DNA from: Actinomycetes bacterium | Lineage (GTDB): Bacteria > Actinomycetota > Acidimicrobiia > Acidimicrobiales > RAAP-2 | NCBI GenBank assembly: GCA_021810205.1 | Contig: JAJZJC010000006.1 | Location: 1-57,223 of the forward strand | DNA: 57,223 bases | Direction: 5' to 3' | In this document: positions 1,788 to 39,867 of the stretch, piece by piece | Numbering within the stretch: position 1 is the first letter of the stretch | How the letters are laid out: each line of letters opens with the position of its first letter | Position numbers and translations under genes: made by a program | Notes under the pieces: model-generated | Told to the model about the DNA's origin: nothing | What the model saw: only the letters and a program-made list of their open reading frames with translations | The model's database searches: none

Positions 1788-4049
1788 TCAGCTCTGGCCA
1801 GGCGCCTCGAGCGCCTCGAGCGCCCCGAGCGCCTCGAGCGCCTCGAGCGCCTCGTTGAAGGTCTTGGAGGGGCGCATCACCTCGGAGACGAGCGCGGGGT
1901 CCGGGTGGTAGTAGCCCCCGAGCTCCACCGGGACGCCCTGGACGGCGATCAGCTCGCCCACGATGGCCTGCTCGTTTGCGGCGAGGCGCTCGGCAAGCGC
2001 CGAGAACGCCGCCGCCAGTGCCGGATCTGTCTTCTGCTGGGCGAGCTCCTGTGCCCAGTACCAGGCGAGGTAGAAGTGGCTCCCGCGATTGTCGATGCTG
2101 CCGAGGCGGCGGGCAGGCGACTTGTTCTCCATCAAGAGAGTCCCCGTCGCCCGGTCGAGCGTGTCGGCGAGCACCTGCGCACGCGTGTTGCCCGTCCGCT
2201 GGGCAAGGGCCTCGAAGCTCACCGCCATTGCAAGGAACTCCCCGAGGCTGTCCCAGCGCAGGTAGTTCTCGCGCACGAGCTGCTGGACGTGCTTGGGCGC
2301 CGACCCACCGGCCCCGGTCTCGAACAGGCGGCCTCCACCGAGGAGCGGCACGATGGAGAGCATCTTGGCGCTCGTGCCGAGCTCGAGGATCGGGAAGAGG
2401 TCCGTCAGGTAGTCGCGCAGCACGTTGCCGGTCACCGAAATGGTGTTCTCACCGCGCCGGATTCGCTCGAGCGAGAGCGCCGTCGCCGCGGCCGGCGCCA
2501 TGATCTCGATCCGTAGACCGGTGGTGTCGAGCTCGCCGAGGTAGCGACGCACCCGCTCGATCAGCACGGCGTCGTGCGCACGCTGCTCGTCGAGCCAGAA
2601 CACCGCCGGGTCACCGGTCGCGCGTGCCCGCTCGACGGCGAGGCGGACCCAGTCGCGGATCGGAAGGTCCTTCGTCTGGCACATCCGGAAGATGTCGCCC
2701 GCCTCGACCTGCTGCTCGAGGACCACGGTGCCCGATCCGTCGACCACCTCTACGGTGCCGTCGGCAGGGATCTCGAAGGTCTTGTCGTGGCTCCCGTACT
2801 CTTCGGCAGCCTGGGCCATCAGGCCGACATTGGGGACCGAGCCCATCGTCGCAGGGTCGAACGCCCCGTGTGCACGGCAGTCCTCGATCACCGTCTGGTA
2901 GACGTCGGCGTAGCTGCCGTCGGGAATGACCGCGAGGGCGTCGGCTTCCTTGCCATCGGGACCCCACATGTGCCCGGACTGGCGGATCATCGCGGGCATC
3001 GACGCGTCGACGATGACGTCGCTCGGCACGTGGAGGTTGGTGATGCCGCGCTCGGAGTCGACCATCGCGAGCGCCGGACCCGCGGCAAGCTCCGCCTCGA
3101 AGCTGGCGCGGATCTCTTGCCCGTTCGCCAGCGATGTCAGGCCAGCGAGGATCGCGCCGAGGCCGTTGTTCGGGCTGAGCCCGCCGGCCGCCAGCTCGCG
3201 ACCGTATCGGGCAAAGGTCTCCGGAAAGAACGCCTGGACGGTGTGACCGAAGATGATGGGGTCCGAGACCTTCATCATCGTCGCCTTCAGGTGCACGGAG
3301 AAGAGCACGCCGTCGGCCTTCGCCCGTTCGATCTGCGTGTCGAGGAACGAGCGCAGCGGTGCCACTCGCATCACCGCGGCGTCGACGACCTCGTCGGCGA
3401 GCACCGCCAGCGCGTCGCGCAGCACGGTGACGGTGCCGTCCTCGGCGCGCAGCTCGATGCGCAGTGTCCCCGGCCTGGCGATCACCGCCGAACGTTCGGT
3501 CGAGTAGAAGTCGTCGGCGTCCATGTGCGCGACGTTGGTCTTCGAGTCGGGCGACCATGCCCCCATCGAATGAGGGTGGGTGCGGGCATAGTTCTTCACC
3601 GAGGCAGGCGCGCGGCGGTCGGAATTGCCCTGGCGGATCACCGGGTTCACCGCGCTCCCGAGCACTCGCCCGTAGCGGCTCTTGACCTCCCGCTCCTCGT
3701 CGGTCCGTGGATCGTCGCGGTACTCGGGGACGTCGAACCCCTGGTCGCGGAGCTCGGCGATGGCCGCCTTCAGCTGAGGGATCGAGGCGGAGATGTTGGG
3801 CAGCTTGATGATGTTCGCGTCGGGCCGATGGGTCATCTCCCCGAGCTCGGCGAGCGCGTCATCGACCCGCTGGTCCTCTCTGAGCCGTTCGGGGAACGTG
3901 GAGAGGATGCGCCCGGCGAACGAGATATCGCGAGTCTCCACCTGCACCCCGGCCACCGACGCATAGGCGCGTATGACCGGCAGCAGTGAGTACGTGGCGA
4001 GCATCGGCGCCTCGTCGGTGTGGGTGTAGATGATCGTCGCGTCACTCAT
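1788..4049 (-). CDS. icd: Monomeric NADP-dependent isocitrate dehydrogenase
   Basis: [56 protein letters not shown]...; characteristic of the ~740-aa monomeric IDH family. ORF open to 4115; ATG at 4049 preferred. Confidence 0.95.
1802..1855. repeat. 9-bp tandem repeat (GCGCCTCGA) x6 inside the icd 3' end, encoding [17 protein letters not shown]
   Basis: Direct reading. Confidence 0.9.
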
Positions 4050-4139
4050 GCAGGCTCGCTCTCCTTGTGATCCGTCTCCCTTCAAGATAGGTCGCCGCCC
4101 GCTACACCTCCCCAAGGGGGTCTCGGAGGCGCAGATGCG

Positions 4140-5597
4140 CTATTGGAAGAGGGGCGTGGCATCGGGGAGCGGCTCGCCGATCTCCATGCCACGACCGGTG
4201 ATGGTGAACTCCCGGACCGACTTGTCGTGGTCGGAGCCACGCATCTTGAGCACCTGGACGGCACGGTGCATCTCACCCCCCTCGGGAACGTAGTGCAGCA
4301 GCGTGATCGCGTCGCTGATGGTCGAGACGTGGAGCTCGCTCGCCGATTCGTTGGCGAGGAGGTTGCCACCGGCGCTCGTCACCATGCCGAGCATCGAGCG
4401 AAGCTTCATGTGGAAGGTGAGCCCCAGGACGTACTCTCGAAAGCTCTTCACCGTCGCGATGCGCTGGAGCGCCGTGAGGCTGTCGATCGCGACCCTGTCG
4501 GGCTCGAATGTGTCGATCGTGGCCTTCAGCCGCTGCAAGTGGTCCTCGAGTGACGCCGCTTCGGGCGCGGCTGCCACGATGCGCAGACCGCCGTCACGCT
4601 CCATGGTGGTGAAGTCCATGCCCCAGGCGCGCGCGTTGCGCACGAGCTGGTCGTGGCTCTCCTCGAAGGAGTGCAGCAGGCAGCGCTGGCCCGCCCGGAC
4701 GCCGCCTGCGACGAAGTGCGCGGCGAGCAACGACTTGCCAGTCCCCGTCGGTCCAGCCACCAACCACAGCGACTTCTCGAACAACCCCCCGTGCACCATG
4801 GTGTCGAGCGCGGGAACGCCCGTGGTGAGCCGATCTGTCGAGCTCGCGTAGTCGATGGAGCTCACCGCGATCGGCACGACGACGATCCCCTCGCCGCTGA
4901 GCAGGGTGAAGAGGTGCTCGCCCTTCAGGTGCGACCCACCGCGCATCTTCAGCACCTCGACGGTGCGGCGACGCTTCTCGCCCTCGAGCGCGTTGCGCAA
5001 GATGATGACGTTGTCGGCGACGAACTCCTCGAATCCGAGCGCCGTGATCGGGCCGTAGTCCTCTGACCGCTCGGCGGTCACCACCGAGCTGACCTCGGCC
5101 TCCTCGAGGGTCTGGGCCAGCTGGAAGAGGGCTCGACGGGCCGGGTTGCCGCTCTCGAACTGGGCCATCAGCGAGCCGGCGGAGTCCAAGGCGACCCTGC
5201 GCGCGCCCGTCCGGTCCACCGCGGCGAGGATCCGGGCGAGCAGCGGACCGAGGTCGTAGTCGTTGCCGGTGAACACCGTCTCGGACTGGTACTGGGGCGA
5301 CGCGTCGATGAAGGTCCAAAGGCCGGCCTCCTCCCATCCGGGAATGTCCCAGCCGAACGAGCGCATGTTCCGGCGGATGCCGTCCGGGCGTTCCTCGAAG
5401 GTGACGAAGACACCGGGCTCGCTCGAGTGCTTGATCCCCGATGCGATGAACTGCGCTGCGAAGACGGTCTTGCCGCTGCCCGCCGTACCTGCCACGAGGC
5501 TCAGTCGATTGCGCGGGAGGCCCCCGAAGGTGACGAGGTCCAGACCGGGGATCCCGGCTGCCAGGCGTTCGATCGCCCCCTGTCGGACTGTCGTCAC
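4140..5597 (-). CDS. KaiC-like protein, two RecA/KaiC ATPase domains
   Basis: Two Walker A motifs (GTAGSGKT, GPTGTGKS); C-terminal ...ELHVSTISDAITLLHYVPEGGEMHRAVQVLKMRGSDHDKSVREFTI matches the KaiC CII signature around the S431/T432 phosphosites. GTG start overlaps the upstream stop (GTGA). Confidence 0.95.
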   Translation of the reverse strand: MTTVRQGAIERLAAGIPGLDLVTFGGLPRNRLSLVAGTAGSGKTVFAAQFIASGIKHSSEPGVFVTFEERPDGIRRNMRSFGWDIPGWEEAGLWTFIDASPQYQSETVFTGNDYDLGPLLARILAAVDRTGARRVALDSAGSLMAQFESGNPARRALFQLAQTLEEAEVSSVVTAERSEDYGPITALGFEEFVADNVIILRNALEGEKRRRTVEVLKMRGGSHLKGEHLFTLLSGEGIVVVPIAVSSIDYASSTDRLTTGVPALDTMVHGGLFEKSLWLVAGPTGTGKSLLAAHFVAGGVRAGQRCLLHSFEESHDQLVRNARAWGMDFTTMERDGGLRIVAAAPEAASLEDHLQRLKATIDTFEPDRVAIDSLTALQRIATVKSFREYVLGLTFHMKLRSMLGMVTSAGGNLLANESASELHVSTISDAITLLHYVPEGGEMHRAVQVLKMRGSDHDKSVREFTITGRGMEIGEPLPDATPLFQ

Positions 5598-6697
5598 GAC
5601 GCGTCCTGTTGACCGAGCGGCAGTTGCAGGGCGCGCGCCAGCTCCTCCACCGAGCGAAGCGAGCCCACGACACGGATCACGGGCGCGGGCTGGAGCCGCA
5701 CGATGGTGGGGGCGGCAAGGACGCCGTCGCGCTCGGTGTCCACCCCCGGCTGACTGACGTCGACCAGCTCGATGGAGAAGTCGAATGTCTCGCGCGTCCG
5801 CAGGGCGAGCTCCTTCACCGCCGCCTCGGTGCGGGTGGAGCGAAGGTCACGGGAGTTCAGATAGGTGCGCAGCACCACTCGGGGCCGTCCACCGAGCTGG
5901 GAGACGTCCTCGATACGGCGGGTGCCGTGCGGGAACATGCGCACCGAGACGACGGTCGCGTCGTCCATCGGTTGCCCGAGACGAGCCGTCGTCCGGCGGG
6001 CGAGCTCGGCGGCCGACGCGATGGGCCCGTGGAGCCCGCGCCCCGCGCGCACGAGGTGCTCGAGCGTTGTACCCAACGAGGAGGTGCGGCGCTCGACGAG
6101 GCCGTCGGTATAGAGGAACAGCGCGGCGTCGCCCGGCAGTGGGTGCGTCGTCGCATGCCGCTCCCCCACGATGCCGAGTGGCGGCCCGCTGACTGCATCG
6201 AGGAGCCTGGTCTCCACCCCGTTGGCGAACAAGATGGGAGGGTGACCCGCGCTCGCCACGTCGACGCACCTCGAGGCGGGGTCCACCACGGCGCACGCCA
6301 AGGTGGCGAAGAGCTCGTCGTTCGTGCGGACCAGGCGGTCGTCGATGAGCGACAGCACAGACGACGGCGAATCCGTGCGGCGGAAAAGCCGATGGAGCTC
6401 CGCTTGGAGCTCGTCCGCCTTCTCGGCGGCGTCCGGGCCGACGCCCGCCACGTCACCGATCACGATCGCCACCCGACCGTCCTTCAGGTCGATCACGTCG
6501 TGGAAGTCACCAGCGACGTCGCCGACCATCGGACGCCAGCAGGCTTCGACCATCAGCGACTGCACGCTCATGGTCTCGGTTCGCCAGCGTGCCGGCATCA
6601 GCTCGTTCGGCCGGCCGTGTCGAAGGGGCGGGCATGATCGGGCACCGGCAGCCGATCGGACCTCATGCGCCGCCGCGCTCTCTGTGACTGTCGCCAA
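5594..6697 (-). CDS. PP2C/SpoIIE-type protein phosphatase with C-terminal KaiB-like domain
   Basis: N-terminal GDVAGDFHDVIDLKDGRVAIVIGDVAGVGPDAAEKA...LFLYTDGLVERR...MDDATVVSVRM (SpoIIE phosphatase motifs); last ~97 aa VVLRTYLNSRDLRSTRTEAAVKELAL...IELVDVSQPGVDTERDGVLAAPTIVRLQPAPVIRVVGSLRS aligns by eye with KaiB. Start could be TTG 6697 or ATG 6599. Confidence 0.9.
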   Translation of the reverse strand: MATVTESAAAHEVRSAAGARSCPPLRHGRPNELMPARWRTETMSVQSLMVEACWRPMVGDVAGDFHDVIDLKDGRVAIVIGDVAGVGPDAAEKADELQAELHRLFRRTDSPSSVLSLIDDRLVRTNDELFATLACAVVDPASRCVDVASAGHPPILFANGVETRLLDAVSGPPLGIVGERHATTHPLPGDAALFLYTDGLVERRTSSLGTTLEHLVRAGRGLHGPIASAAELARRTTARLGQPMDDATVVSVRMFPHGTRRIEDVSQLGGRPRVVLRTYLNSRDLRSTRTEAAVKELALRTRETFDFSIELVDVSQPGVDTERDGVLAAPTIVRLQPAPVIRVVGSLRSVEELARALQLPLGQQDAS

Positions 6698-6873
6698 GCT
6701 CGCACCTGTGTCGATCTCCCCGGGCGTCGGGCTGCGGTCACCTAGCGCCCGAGCTCCCAGGTGCCTTCAGTCTCAATCCGACGGTGTACTCCCGTTGTTC
6801 GACTCGAACAAGTCGAGCGCGAGAGGGCGCTGCACGCTCCCAGGCGTCGTCGGCGATGCAACGCGCGTCGCAA

Positions 6874-6929
6874 CGTGCTCGGTCGCGACGTGCTCGGTCG
6901 CGGCGTGCTCGGTCGCGGCGTGCTCGGTC
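6874..6929. repeat. 15-bp tandem repeat (CGTGCTCGGTCGCGR), nearly 4 copies
   Basis: Direct reading, just downstream of the dioxygenase stop. Confidence 0.85.
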
Positions 6930-6953: not shown

Positions 6954-8222
6954 CTACTTCTCACCAGTGTCACCGGCGACCGAGTAGACGACCTTGGTGT
7001 TTCGCGTCTCGAGGAACGCTTCCAGGGTCTCTCCGCGCATCGCCGCGTAGACGTCGAGGTTCGAGAGGCCGAGCACCGCGGCGAGCTTCTCGAGGACGAA
7101 GAAGATGGCACCGTAATGGATCAACCCCCGCCAGTCGCGTCGACGCAGCAGATCTCTCTCCTCCTCACTGAGCCCCGCCTCGTCGAAGCTGGCCTCGGGA
7201 TCGGAGAGGAACCGGGCTCGGTGCGCCGGGTCGACCATCGCGTGCAGGTACGTGTTCAGGCGAAAGCCCTTCACGCTGCGCGCCAGGTCGAATGGGTAGG
7301 TGCCCGAGAGGGCATCCGCGCCGGATAGCTGCTCGGCCATGCGCTCGCGGTGGCGGAGTGCCGCGGCCGAGGGCATCTCCACGGTCTGGCTCTCCAAGAC
7401 GAGCGTCCCGATCGCGGTCATCGACGGAAGGTAGTACGAGCTATGCACTCGCTCGACCGTCTCGGACAACGCCCCGCGCATGATCAGCCACATGATGACC
7501 TCGGCGCCCTCCATGCCGCCGAGCGCCGCGTACTCCGCGTGGGTCATCTCCGCGAGCGACGCGGGATCGTTCGTGATGGCGTCGACGAACTGGCGGTCCC
7601 ACTCGGGATTGTTGAACCCGGCGCGCTCGCCATGCACCTGGTGCGACAGTCCGCCGGTCGAGACGACCGCGACACGGATGTCCTCGGGGTAGCTCTCGAT
7701 GGCCCGTCGGAGCGCCTTGCCGAGCTTGAAGCAGCGCGCCGCGCTCGGAATGGGGTACTGCAGCACGCCGACTTGGAGCGGCACGAGGGTCGTCGGCCAA
7801 CCGGCGTCGTCGTGGTCGAGCAGGACCGACATCGGCGAGAAGAACCCGTGGTCGAGCGGCTTGCCTTGGAAGAAGGACATGTCGAACTCGTCGGTGACGA
7901 GGCTCTGGCCGATGTGCTGGGCCAGTGGGGGGTTCCCCTGGATGGGCGGCAGGGCCCTCGGGCCACCGCCTTCGTCGGCCGGACGGTACTCCTCGCCGAT
8001 CCCGAGGGCGAAGGCCGAGTAGTGGTCGAAGAAGAACGACGTCACGTGGTCGTTGAAGACGTAGACGATCGCGTCGGGCTGCTCACGGCGGAACCAGTCG
8101 CGCACCGGCGCAAAGGAGCGGAAGATCGGTGCCCACGCCTCGTCGTCCTGTTTGTGCGCGTCGTAGGCGAAGCCGATGGTCGGCGTGTGCGACGCCGCGA
8201 CTCCTCCGATGATCCGGGCCAT
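6954..8222 (-). CDS. Gallate dioxygenase-like extradiol dioxygenase (LigB catalytic domain fused to LigA-like domain)
   Basis: MARIIGGVAASHTPTIGFAYDAHKQ...VYVFNDHVTSFFFDHYSAFALGIGEEY...VVSTGGLSHQVHGERAGFNNPEWD, then YPFDLARSVKGFRLNTYLHAMVDPAHRARFLSDPEASFDEAGLSEEERDLLRRRDWRGLIHYGAIFFVLEKLAAVLG (LigA-like). Confidence 0.85.
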   Translation of the reverse strand: MARIIGGVAASHTPTIGFAYDAHKQDDEAWAPIFRSFAPVRDWFRREQPDAIVYVFNDHVTSFFFDHYSAFALGIGEEYRPADEGGGPRALPPIQGNPPLAQHIGQSLVTDEFDMSFFQGKPLDHGFFSPMSVLLDHDDAGWPTTLVPLQVGVLQYPIPSAARCFKLGKALRRAIESYPEDIRVAVVSTGGLSHQVHGERAGFNNPEWDRQFVDAITNDPASLAEMTHAEYAALGGMEGAEVIMWLIMRGALSETVERVHSSYYLPSMTAIGTLVLESQTVEMPSAAALRHRERMAEQLSGADALSGTYPFDLARSVKGFRLNTYLHAMVDPAHRARFLSDPEASFDEAGLSEEERDLLRRRDWRGLIHYGAIFFVLEKLAAVLGLSNLDVYAAMRGETLEAFLETRNTKVVYSVAGDTGEK

Positions 8223-35625: not shown

Positions 35626-36372
35626 CTATTCGCGTGGTCTCCGACCAGCGTCAGGCAAGGACCATGCGTCGGGGTCGAGCGTGCCGTCGACGGCGGCGCG
35701 TGCGACCTCGGTGAGCCGAAGATTGTGGTTGCGAGCGTAGCCACGGAGCCGGTCGAAGGCTCCGGAGAGGTCGACGCCTGCACGTTCTGCGATGATGCCC
35801 TTGGCTTGCTCGATGACGATGCGGCTGTTGAGCGCGTACGTGAGCTGCTCGTTGGTGCGCTGGTGCTCGTCGGCGCTGCGGTGCTGGATGATGCTGATCG
35901 CAGCCAGATCGGCGAAGGCACGGGCGACCACGGTGTCGGCCTCGCTCATCGGGACGACTCCGACACTGAACAGGTTCAGTGCCCCGATGGTGGTGTCCCG
36001 GAGTCGTAGGGGCAGGGCGGAGACCGACTGAAAACCGGCTTCGATCGCGGCCACCGAAAAGCGCGGCCACGGGTCGCTTCCGGCCCGCAGGATCACATGG
36101 TCGACGGACTCTCCGCTGCAGTAGGCATCCAAGCAGGGCCCCTCGTCGGCTTGGAGCTCGAAGAGCTCCAGGATCCTCATCGCCTCACTGGAGGACGCGA
36201 CGAGACGGATGTCGCCCTGCACCGTGGCAACCATGACCCCCGCGGCGGAGATCCCCAGCAGTTCGACGCAGCGCGCCGCCAGCCCAGTGAGCAGCTCGAC
36301 CACGTCGAAATCGCCGACGAGGGTGTCGGCCATCTCGACCAGCGCTCTTACGACCAGGTTTTCTCGTGCCAT
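35626..36372 (-). CDS. GAF-ANTAR domain protein
   Basis: GAF: GVMVATVQGDIRLVASSSEAMRILELFELQADEGPCLDAYCSGE...; ANTAR: ALNSRIVIEQAKGIIAERAGVDLSGAFDRLRGYARNHNLRLTEVARAAVDG. Confidence 0.9.
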   Translation of the reverse strand: MARENLVVRALVEMADTLVGDFDVVELLTGLAARCVELLGISAAGVMVATVQGDIRLVASSSEAMRILELFELQADEGPCLDAYCSGESVDHVILRAGSDPWPRFSVAAIEAGFQSVSALPLRLRDTTIGALNLFSVGVVPMSEADTVVARAFADLAAISIIQHRSADEHQRTNEQLTYALNSRIVIEQAKGIIAERAGVDLSGAFDRLRGYARNHNLRLTEVARAAVDGTLDPDAWSLPDAGRRPRE

Positions 36373-38970: not shown

Positions 38971-39408
38971 TCATCTGGCTCCCATTGCGCCGGGCAAGCC
39001 CGGACGGCGCTCGCGCCGTGCTTGGGCAGTTGCAGCTTCGGCCACATCGTCGTGGAGACTGAACACTGCGCTCAGGCCGACGAGCGCGATGACCCTGCGC
39101 GGCAGTGGCTGCGGGCTCGCGAGATCGAACCAGGTGTGGCAGGCGATGGCGCGTTGTCGGGCGACCAGCAACGCTGTCAGACCGGCCGCCCCCAAGAACC
39201 CCACGCCGCTCAGGTCGCAGATGAGTCCTTTGGGGCGGCGGCGCAGGGCAGCGCCAAGGGCCTCTGAAAGTTGGTCGGCGGTGGCGATGTCGACTTCGCC
39301 GGTGACCGACACGACGACCGACGAGCCCATCGTCCACTTGGTGAGACCCAGGCTCGCTCGCGCGGTCCCGACGTGCCCGGGAGATCGGATGGCGGTGAGC
39401 CCACTCAT
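38971..39408 (-). CDS. STAS-domain anti-sigma factor antagonist
   Basis: VVSVTGEVDIATADQLSEALGAALRRRPKGLICDLSGVGFLGAAGLTALLVARQRA. ATG 39408 preferred. Confidence 0.88.
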   Translation of the reverse strand: MSGLTAIRSPGHVGTARASLGLTKWTMGSSVVVSVTGEVDIATADQLSEALGAALRRRPKGLICDLSGVGFLGAAGLTALLVARQRAIACHTWFDLASPQPLPRRVIALVGLSAVFSLHDDVAEAATAQARRERRPGLPGAMGAR

Positions 39409-39456
39409 GACGGCCCGCCCGTGCAGCCCCGGCCCTGCGCCGGGATGGGGGGCAGG

Positions 39457-39501
39457 GGCCCGAGAGGCGCGGGCCCGAGAGGCGCGGGCCCGGGGGAATG
39501 A
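39457..39501. repeat. 15-bp tandem repeat (GGCCCGAGAGGCGCG) x3
   Basis: Direct reading. Confidence 0.8.
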
Positions 39502-39867
39502 TGTGCCGAGGAGCTGCCGTTCCGCACCCGAGCGAGGCACGGTATCGGAGAGCGCAGAGCTGACCATCGTCGCCTGCGAGCTGCGCGCTGGCTCCAGCGG
39601 CGCCGCAAGATCACCGACAAGATCACTTGGTTCTGCCATCTTCGTTGCTCCCTTCCTCCTGGGCGCCGCCGAGCACACCGCTCGGATCTGCGTCGCCAGG
39701 GTCTGGAGCAACGTTGTCGCCTGTCAGGGCCCATCCGGCCCGACCGCGCCTGCTATGTGCATTGCTAGCACCATTCCTGCGGTGATACAAGGCGGACACA
39801 ACATCGGTTCGGTCACTTCATGCGCGCGGCACGAGGTGGGAGCCACAGTGCTCAGAGCCACGTGTCG

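Follow-up and report, generated by a model that had tools for sequence, protein, structure and literature searches.

A SpoIIE-type phosphatase with a C-terminal KaiB domain encoded next to kaiC: a candidate KaiA-less two-gene Kai module

Introduction

In cyanobacteria, fold-switched KaiB docks on the CI ring of KaiC via the B-loop, where it competes with the KaiB-like domain of SasA (PMC6378743). Output also runs through CikA, which acts as a phosphatase on RpaA. KaiB together with KaiC stimulates this activity, and fold-switched KaiB increases it threefold (PMC6378743). The G89A/D91R substitutions move KaiB to this KaiC-binding fold (PMC8059507). Within KaiC, the A-loop balances the autokinase and autophosphatase activities of the cyanobacterial protein (PMC6378743). 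A described system without KaiA is that of Rhodobacter, where KaiC autophosphorylates, autodephosphorylates and responds to ATP/ADP, while KaiB acts via CI (PMC10076222).

For KaiBC systems without KaiA, a covalent link between KaiB and a phosphatase is of interest, since it would name an output enzyme. We describe such a link in a stretch of 57,223 nucleotides of actinomycete DNA, referred to as the window, and compare it with the Kai loci of related genomes.

Results

The two genes form a unit on the minus strand of the window, i.e., a SpoIIE-KaiB fusion gene (5594..6598, 334 aa) followed by kaiC (4140..5597, 485 aa, two RecA-like domains). They share a GTGA overlap (5594..5597, minus strand) that holds the TGA stop of the fusion gene and the GTG start of kaiC. 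The gene extents are based on the open reading frame, Pfam, orthologues and the edge of DNA homology for the fusion and on Pfam, NF006799 and PDB KaiC alignments for kaiC. The original prediction had placed the pair at 4140-6697. Its kaiC end stands, whereas the upstream border probably has to be moved. A TTG start at 6697 gives a longer reading of 367 aa (ORF 5594-6697), but DNA homology of the window to the other fusion carriers starts only near 6597-6611, and [MVL]PGRWR forms the N-terminus of the orthologues. We therefore consider the ATG at 6598 the most likely start and the TTG probably too far upstream.

The pair is flanked upstream by a gallate dioxygenase gene (6954-8222) and downstream by a monomeric isocitrate dehydrogenase gene (1788-4115). 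Between the dioxygenase and fusion genes lies a 15-bp tandem repeat (6867-6929, 4.2 copies, 95% match), and the isocitrate dehydrogenase frame ends in an EAL-rich repeat (1788-1860, minus strand).

With regard to the fusion protein, the predicted combination of a phosphatase with a C-terminal KaiB domain was recovered. The SpoIIE/RsbU-type PP2C phosphatase domain (5936..6481, minus strand) is supported by PF07228 (121.1 bits, cut-off 25), fold matches and alignments. Its metal-ligand Asp motifs AGDFHD, GDVAG, YTDG and DDATVV align with solved phosphatases and are retained in 6/6 fusions known to us (see below). The AlphaFold model of the whole fusion is of moderate confidence (pLDDT 70.8, five sequences only); top fold matches are Rv1364c RsbU, SpoIIE, RsbX and RssB. 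A linker of about 25 aa without conserved sequence (5861..5935, minus strand, from alignments) connects the phosphatase to the KaiB domain (5630..5860, minus strand).

The KaiB domain is detected by PF07689 within the 367-aa ORF (residues 281-356, 31.3 bits, cut-off 27, E 1.6e-7) and again, at 5630-5860, with 34.7 bits in a scan of the whole window genome (72% complete), in which no second KaiB was found. The C-terminal 103 aa alone retrieve KaiB chains from the PDB with an E-value of 4e-6 (phmmer). Since phosphatase matches dominated the fold search with the full-length fusion, which was silent on KaiB, we modelled the KaiB domain on its own. AlphaFold (pLDDT 79, five sequences only) gives a beta-alpha-beta-beta-alpha order, for which the best Foldseek match is the Legionella KaiB 4kun. 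Listed among thioredoxins is also 5jwr_B, the fold-switched KaiB of a complex with KaiC-CI (TM-scores normalised by target length, 0.85 for 4kun and 0.82 for 5jwr_B). By prediction, the domain thus has the thioredoxin-like fold that binds KaiC; a C-terminus of any other fold, named in the original prediction as evidence against it, is not what the models show.

The KaiB domain is present in 6/6 fusions. For every carrier pair its dN is below dS (0.065 versus 0.46 for the closest carrier pair and 0.19 versus 0.77 for the window and G775), much as for the phosphatase, i.e., the domain is under purifying selection as judged from substitution patterns. It is divergent in sequence and has lost the GDLS motif. 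Position 89, a Gly in canonical KaiB, is Ala in 6/6 fusions and residue 91 is Gln, His or Asp. We considered whether Ala89/Gln91 might mark a KaiB that is held permanently in the fold that binds KaiC. This idea is weakened, given that Ala89 is also found in unfused KaiBs of the same order and that the fusion of G767 has Asp91.

The second gene is a two-domain KaiC that carries HVSTISD and overlaps the fusion gene, as was claimed. It matches PF06745 in two stretches (348.9 bits) and NF006799, 'circadian clock protein KaiC', with 557.6 bits (cut-off 408); its closest solved relative is chain 8zn5 (537 bits). P-loops and catalytic EE are retained both in the CI domain (4872..5558, minus strand, GTAGSGKT; PF06745 residues 14-242 and alignment) and in the CII domain (4167..4841, minus strand, GPTGTGKS; KaiC-chain alignments). 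The aligned B-loop region (5250..5306, minus strand), DASPQYQSETVFTGNDYDL, is typical of its clade; the KaiB/SasA docking role is that of the cyanobacterial counterpart (PMC6378743). Ser425-Thr426 (4320..4325, minus strand) is by alignment equivalent to the phosphosites S431/T432 of cyanobacterial KaiC, and this pair (STIS motif) is kept in the KaiCs of 6/6 carriers. T426 of cyanobacterial KaiC is replaced by Ser in the window KaiC.

The C-terminus is short. From SVREFTI to the stop, 26 aa are left (4140..4220, minus strand, from alignment; 25-26 residues in 6/6 carriers) and the GIL(S/A)G A-loop segment is absent from all six KaiCs. That is, the window KaiC has neither the A-loop nor the KaiA-binding tail of the KaiC of a KaiABC clock. 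The other KaiCs compared retain a GIL(S/A)G or GVLTG counterpart, with the exception of G540 and G604. In agreement with the original prediction, PF07688 detects no KaiA in the window genome (72% complete) or in the five other carriers, while KaiA of Synechococcus elongatus was detected as a positive control. With regard to kaiA, the gene content of the carriers is thus not that expected of a KaiABC circadian oscillator.

Next, we consider where the fusion occurs. The search for further SpoIIE-KaiB fusions and their linkage to KaiC, which the original prediction had proposed, yielded five further genomes (G775, G744, G728, G571 and G767), and kaiC overlaps or starts within 3 nt of the fusion gene in 6/6 carriers. 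The fusion is found in 5/35 genomes of family f101 (four genera) and in 1/120 of the window's family f1, and in none of 12 congeners of the window genome. In all six genomes, which represent five genera, it is encoded in one continuous frame, and across the phosphatase and KaiB domains the proteins are 49-67% identical to that of the window. Four of the five further carriers are named draft metagenome assemblies ('Actinomycetes bacterium'). An assembly or gene-calling artefact might be suspected, since the named carriers are all such drafts, but the same frame at this level of identity in independent assemblies, with dN below dS, refutes this reading and leaves it a negligible probability.

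No third gene around the pair is common to divergent carriers, with sharing only between the close relatives G728 and G571; neither was a STAS, RsbW or sigma-factor gene found conserved beside the pair in the carrier neighbourhoods. The DNA match of the window to each other full locus is limited to about 4146-6611. The adjoining isocitrate dehydrogenase gene has counterparts in congeners at 72-79% DNA identity. We thus set aside the explanation of a misbinned contig: given these same-genus matches, the contig probably belongs to this genome and the Kai module is its odd part. Distribution and homology edges fit the transfer of a two-gene unit between lineages, with loss of the pair in the congeners as the alternative.

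A further genome, G696, holds a remnant of the module (L067:6166-6860, minus strand), i.e., phosphatase fragments and parts of the C-terminal end of KaiC, with the middle missing. It adjoins the same phosphotransferase gene as in L073.

Putative partner-switching components are encoded in the incomplete window genome (72% complete), where profile scans report eight STAS matches, seven of them above cut-off, and several HATPase_c_2 proteins. One STAS-domain ORF lies within the window (38971..39711, minus strand, PF01740 45.6 bits); as a candidate for the substrate type of the phosphatase it is speculative and has no link to it. A GAF-ANTAR protein (35626-36372, minus strand) on the same contig is, like the STAS ORF, a possible member of a regulatory network.

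We also surveyed KaiC in 397 genomes of the same order (E below 1e-60). KaiC is found in 20/397 genomes with a total of 21 loci, 4 of which are fusion loci. Genes in the relatives' loci were called with a simple script, with Pfam checks for the named genes only. Three loci (G540, G604, G609) show the gene order kaiC, kaiB and a gene for a PAS-PAS-GAF-SpoIIE-HATPase_c_2 protein, the latter two separated by 7-16 nt (L108:2640-6009, L109:3267-6594 and L111:3504-7905, all on the minus strand). In another three (G407, G437, G474), where KaiB was not found, an RsbW-like HATPase_c_2 gene directly precedes kaiC (L102:7344-7787, minus strand; L104:5404-6069 and L105:5344-5961, plus strand). Three more (G275, G445, G656) have kaiC and two kaiB genes followed by a GGDEF-EAL gene. 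In such loci with a tandem kaiB pair (L066, L107, L110) the second KaiB is divergent. A PAS-GGDEF-KaiB fusion gene precedes and overlaps kaiC in G584 (L106:7533-8789, minus strand), a histidine kinase follows kaiB in G350, and a CheB/CheR-kinase follows kaiC in G516. Altogether, 10/21 KaiC loci have a partner-switching enzyme and 4/21 a c-di-GMP enzyme.

In G163, KaiB lies within long open frames, which we rejected as fusions, since their N-terminal parts resemble out-of-frame translation, i.e., high-GC extensions; this KaiB is an ordinary one that lies before kaiC or a PAS-GGDEF gene.

In the KaiC tree, the fusion clade (support 100/100) is far from the clade of the kaiC-kaiB-SpoIIE operons. 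Given these distant branches, the pairing of SpoIIE with Kai, and of KaiB with SpoIIE in particular, probably arose at least twice.

Discussion

We favour the reading that the pair is a KaiA-less two-gene Kai module with a KaiC-gated output phosphatase that feeds partner switching, to which we assign a probability of slightly below one half (about 0.48). Following known Kai biology, KaiC would form a hexamer, the state of its CI ring would follow the ATPase/phosphorylation cycle, and the C-terminal KaiB domain, in its thioredoxin-like form, would bind this ring. In this way KaiC would both recruit and gate the RsbU/SpoIIE-kind phosphatase domain, whose output would be the dephosphorylation of a partner-switching protein, i.e., an anti-anti-sigma STAS protein. 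The KaiC state, or cellular ATP/ADP, would then set a sigma-factor or stress switch. Against this reading speak the divergence of the KaiB domain and the finding that no STAS, RsbW or sigma-factor gene is conserved beside the pair. Moreover, KaiB is the sole candidate sensor of the fusion phosphatase, such that we infer its gating, like the type of substrate, from the phosphatase family and the neighbourhoods of the relatives. By analogy to RsbU and SpoIIE, a STAS protein is the most likely substrate. KaiB itself looks like an adaptor by which KaiC controls an output enzyme, as is the case for SasA and CikA, because in the relatives it joins or adjoins PAS-GGDEF, GGDEF-EAL, histidine kinase and SpoIIE enzymes next to KaiC.

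The original prediction had the phosphatase act on KaiC instead. That is, the fusion, docked by its KaiB domain, would strip the phosphates from Ser425/Thr426 and thereby close a KaiA-less cycle that serves as switch or timer. Cyanobacterial KaiC that is cut before the A-loop is constitutively phosphorylated, such that a separate phosphatase would be useful, and may even be needed, for the six KaiCs that keep the Ser-Thr pair and have no A-loop segment. The only other KaiCs without this segment (G540, G604) are both encoded in operons with a SpoIIE gene, and without a conserved third gene the substrate could be found inside the two-gene unit. On the other hand, the docking site of KaiB is in CI, but CII holds the phosphosites (PMC10076222, PMC6378743), and in Rhodobacter the KaiA-less KaiC needs no phosphatase for its autodephosphorylation (PMC10076222). 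The KaiB partners of the relatives include GGDEF, GGDEF-EAL and histidine kinase proteins, which cannot dephosphorylate KaiC, and it is for this reason that we prefer an output role. Moreover, the known substrates of SpoIIE/RsbU-type PP2C phosphatases are STAS proteins. We thus regard KaiC as a possible but not favoured substrate, rather unlikely on balance, with a KaiC-gated output phosphatase being at least as likely.

A still less probable explanation is that the KaiB domain only serves targeting or oligomerisation, such that the phosphatase rides KaiC constitutively or hits an unrelated target while KaiC serves something else. The divergence of the domain would fit, as would Ala89 in 6/6 fusions, with which the slow fold-switch element may be missing. 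Given that unfused KaiBs of the order have Ala89 too, this residue says little for or against, and SasA, an output protein, has a constitutive thioredoxin-like fold as well. Purifying selection, the clade-typical B-loop and the strict linkage to kaiC argue against mere targeting.

On the level of the whole order, we tentatively propose, with somewhat less confidence than for the two-gene module itself, that KaiC acts as a timer or senses energy and is connected to partner switching by serine/threonine phosphorylation. The KaiB plug would hand the KaiC state to a SpoIIE phosphatase, either fused or encoded in the same operon, and the RsbW-like kinases beside kaiC would be the opposing arm. If true, Kai output would reach sigma factors by a route without two-component signalling. 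The wider pattern suggests KaiB as a general adaptor, fused to or encoded beside SpoIIE, GGDEF and histidine kinase enzymes; together with the RsbW-like genes it also suggests that Kai proteins feed both partner switching and c-di-GMP signalling. For the fusion, our results suggest that neither KaiA nor the usual histidine kinase is required for Kai proteins to drive a phosphatase switch. The activity of the fusion can be assayed with two purified proteins.

In the open-access literature, we found no paper on KaiB with SpoIIE or on KaiC with RsbU and an anti-sigma factor, and no title or abstract matching a KaiB-diguanylate cyclase fusion. The SpoIIE-KaiB architecture next to kaiC is new relative to the open-access papers searched, none of which describes it.

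Comparison with known systems

The KaiBC hourglass of Rhodobacter sphaeroides (PMC10076222) shares with the window KaiC, KaiB, the absence of KaiA and paired phosphoacceptor residues in CII. It differs by a free small KaiB and a long coiled-coil KaiC tail, whereas KaiB of the window is fused to a phosphatase and its KaiC ends before the A-loop. RsbU, SpoIIE and Rv1364c belong to the same PP2C subfamily as the fusion and share its metal-ligand motifs. These partner-switching phosphatases have PAS, GAF, RsbT-binding or membrane domains where the fusion has KaiB, and neither an RsbW nor a STAS partner is encoded beside the latter.

Among the relatives, the operons of G540, G604 and G609 likewise bring together KaiC, KaiB and a SpoIIE phosphatase, but as separate genes and with a KaiC of about 34-36% identity from a distant branch. 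The PAS-GGDEF-KaiB protein of G584 (locus L106) also carries a C-terminal KaiB on a signalling enzyme whose gene overlaps kaiC; here, the enzyme is a diguanylate cyclase.

CikA with KaiB-KaiC (PMC6378743) resembles the fusion in that a phosphatase output is, for the fusion by analogy, tied to KaiB on KaiC. In contrast, CikA, a histidine kinase/phosphatase with RpaA-P as its substrate, is a protein of its own, and its contact with KaiB is non-covalent. In SasA, a KaiB-fold domain sits covalently on a signalling enzyme and reads KaiC, as may be the case for the fusion. However, SasA is a histidine kinase with an N-terminal KaiB-like domain, while in the fusion KaiB is C-terminal and the enzyme a Ser/Thr phosphatase of the PP2C type. 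The fusion is thus not a SasA, but it may work like one.
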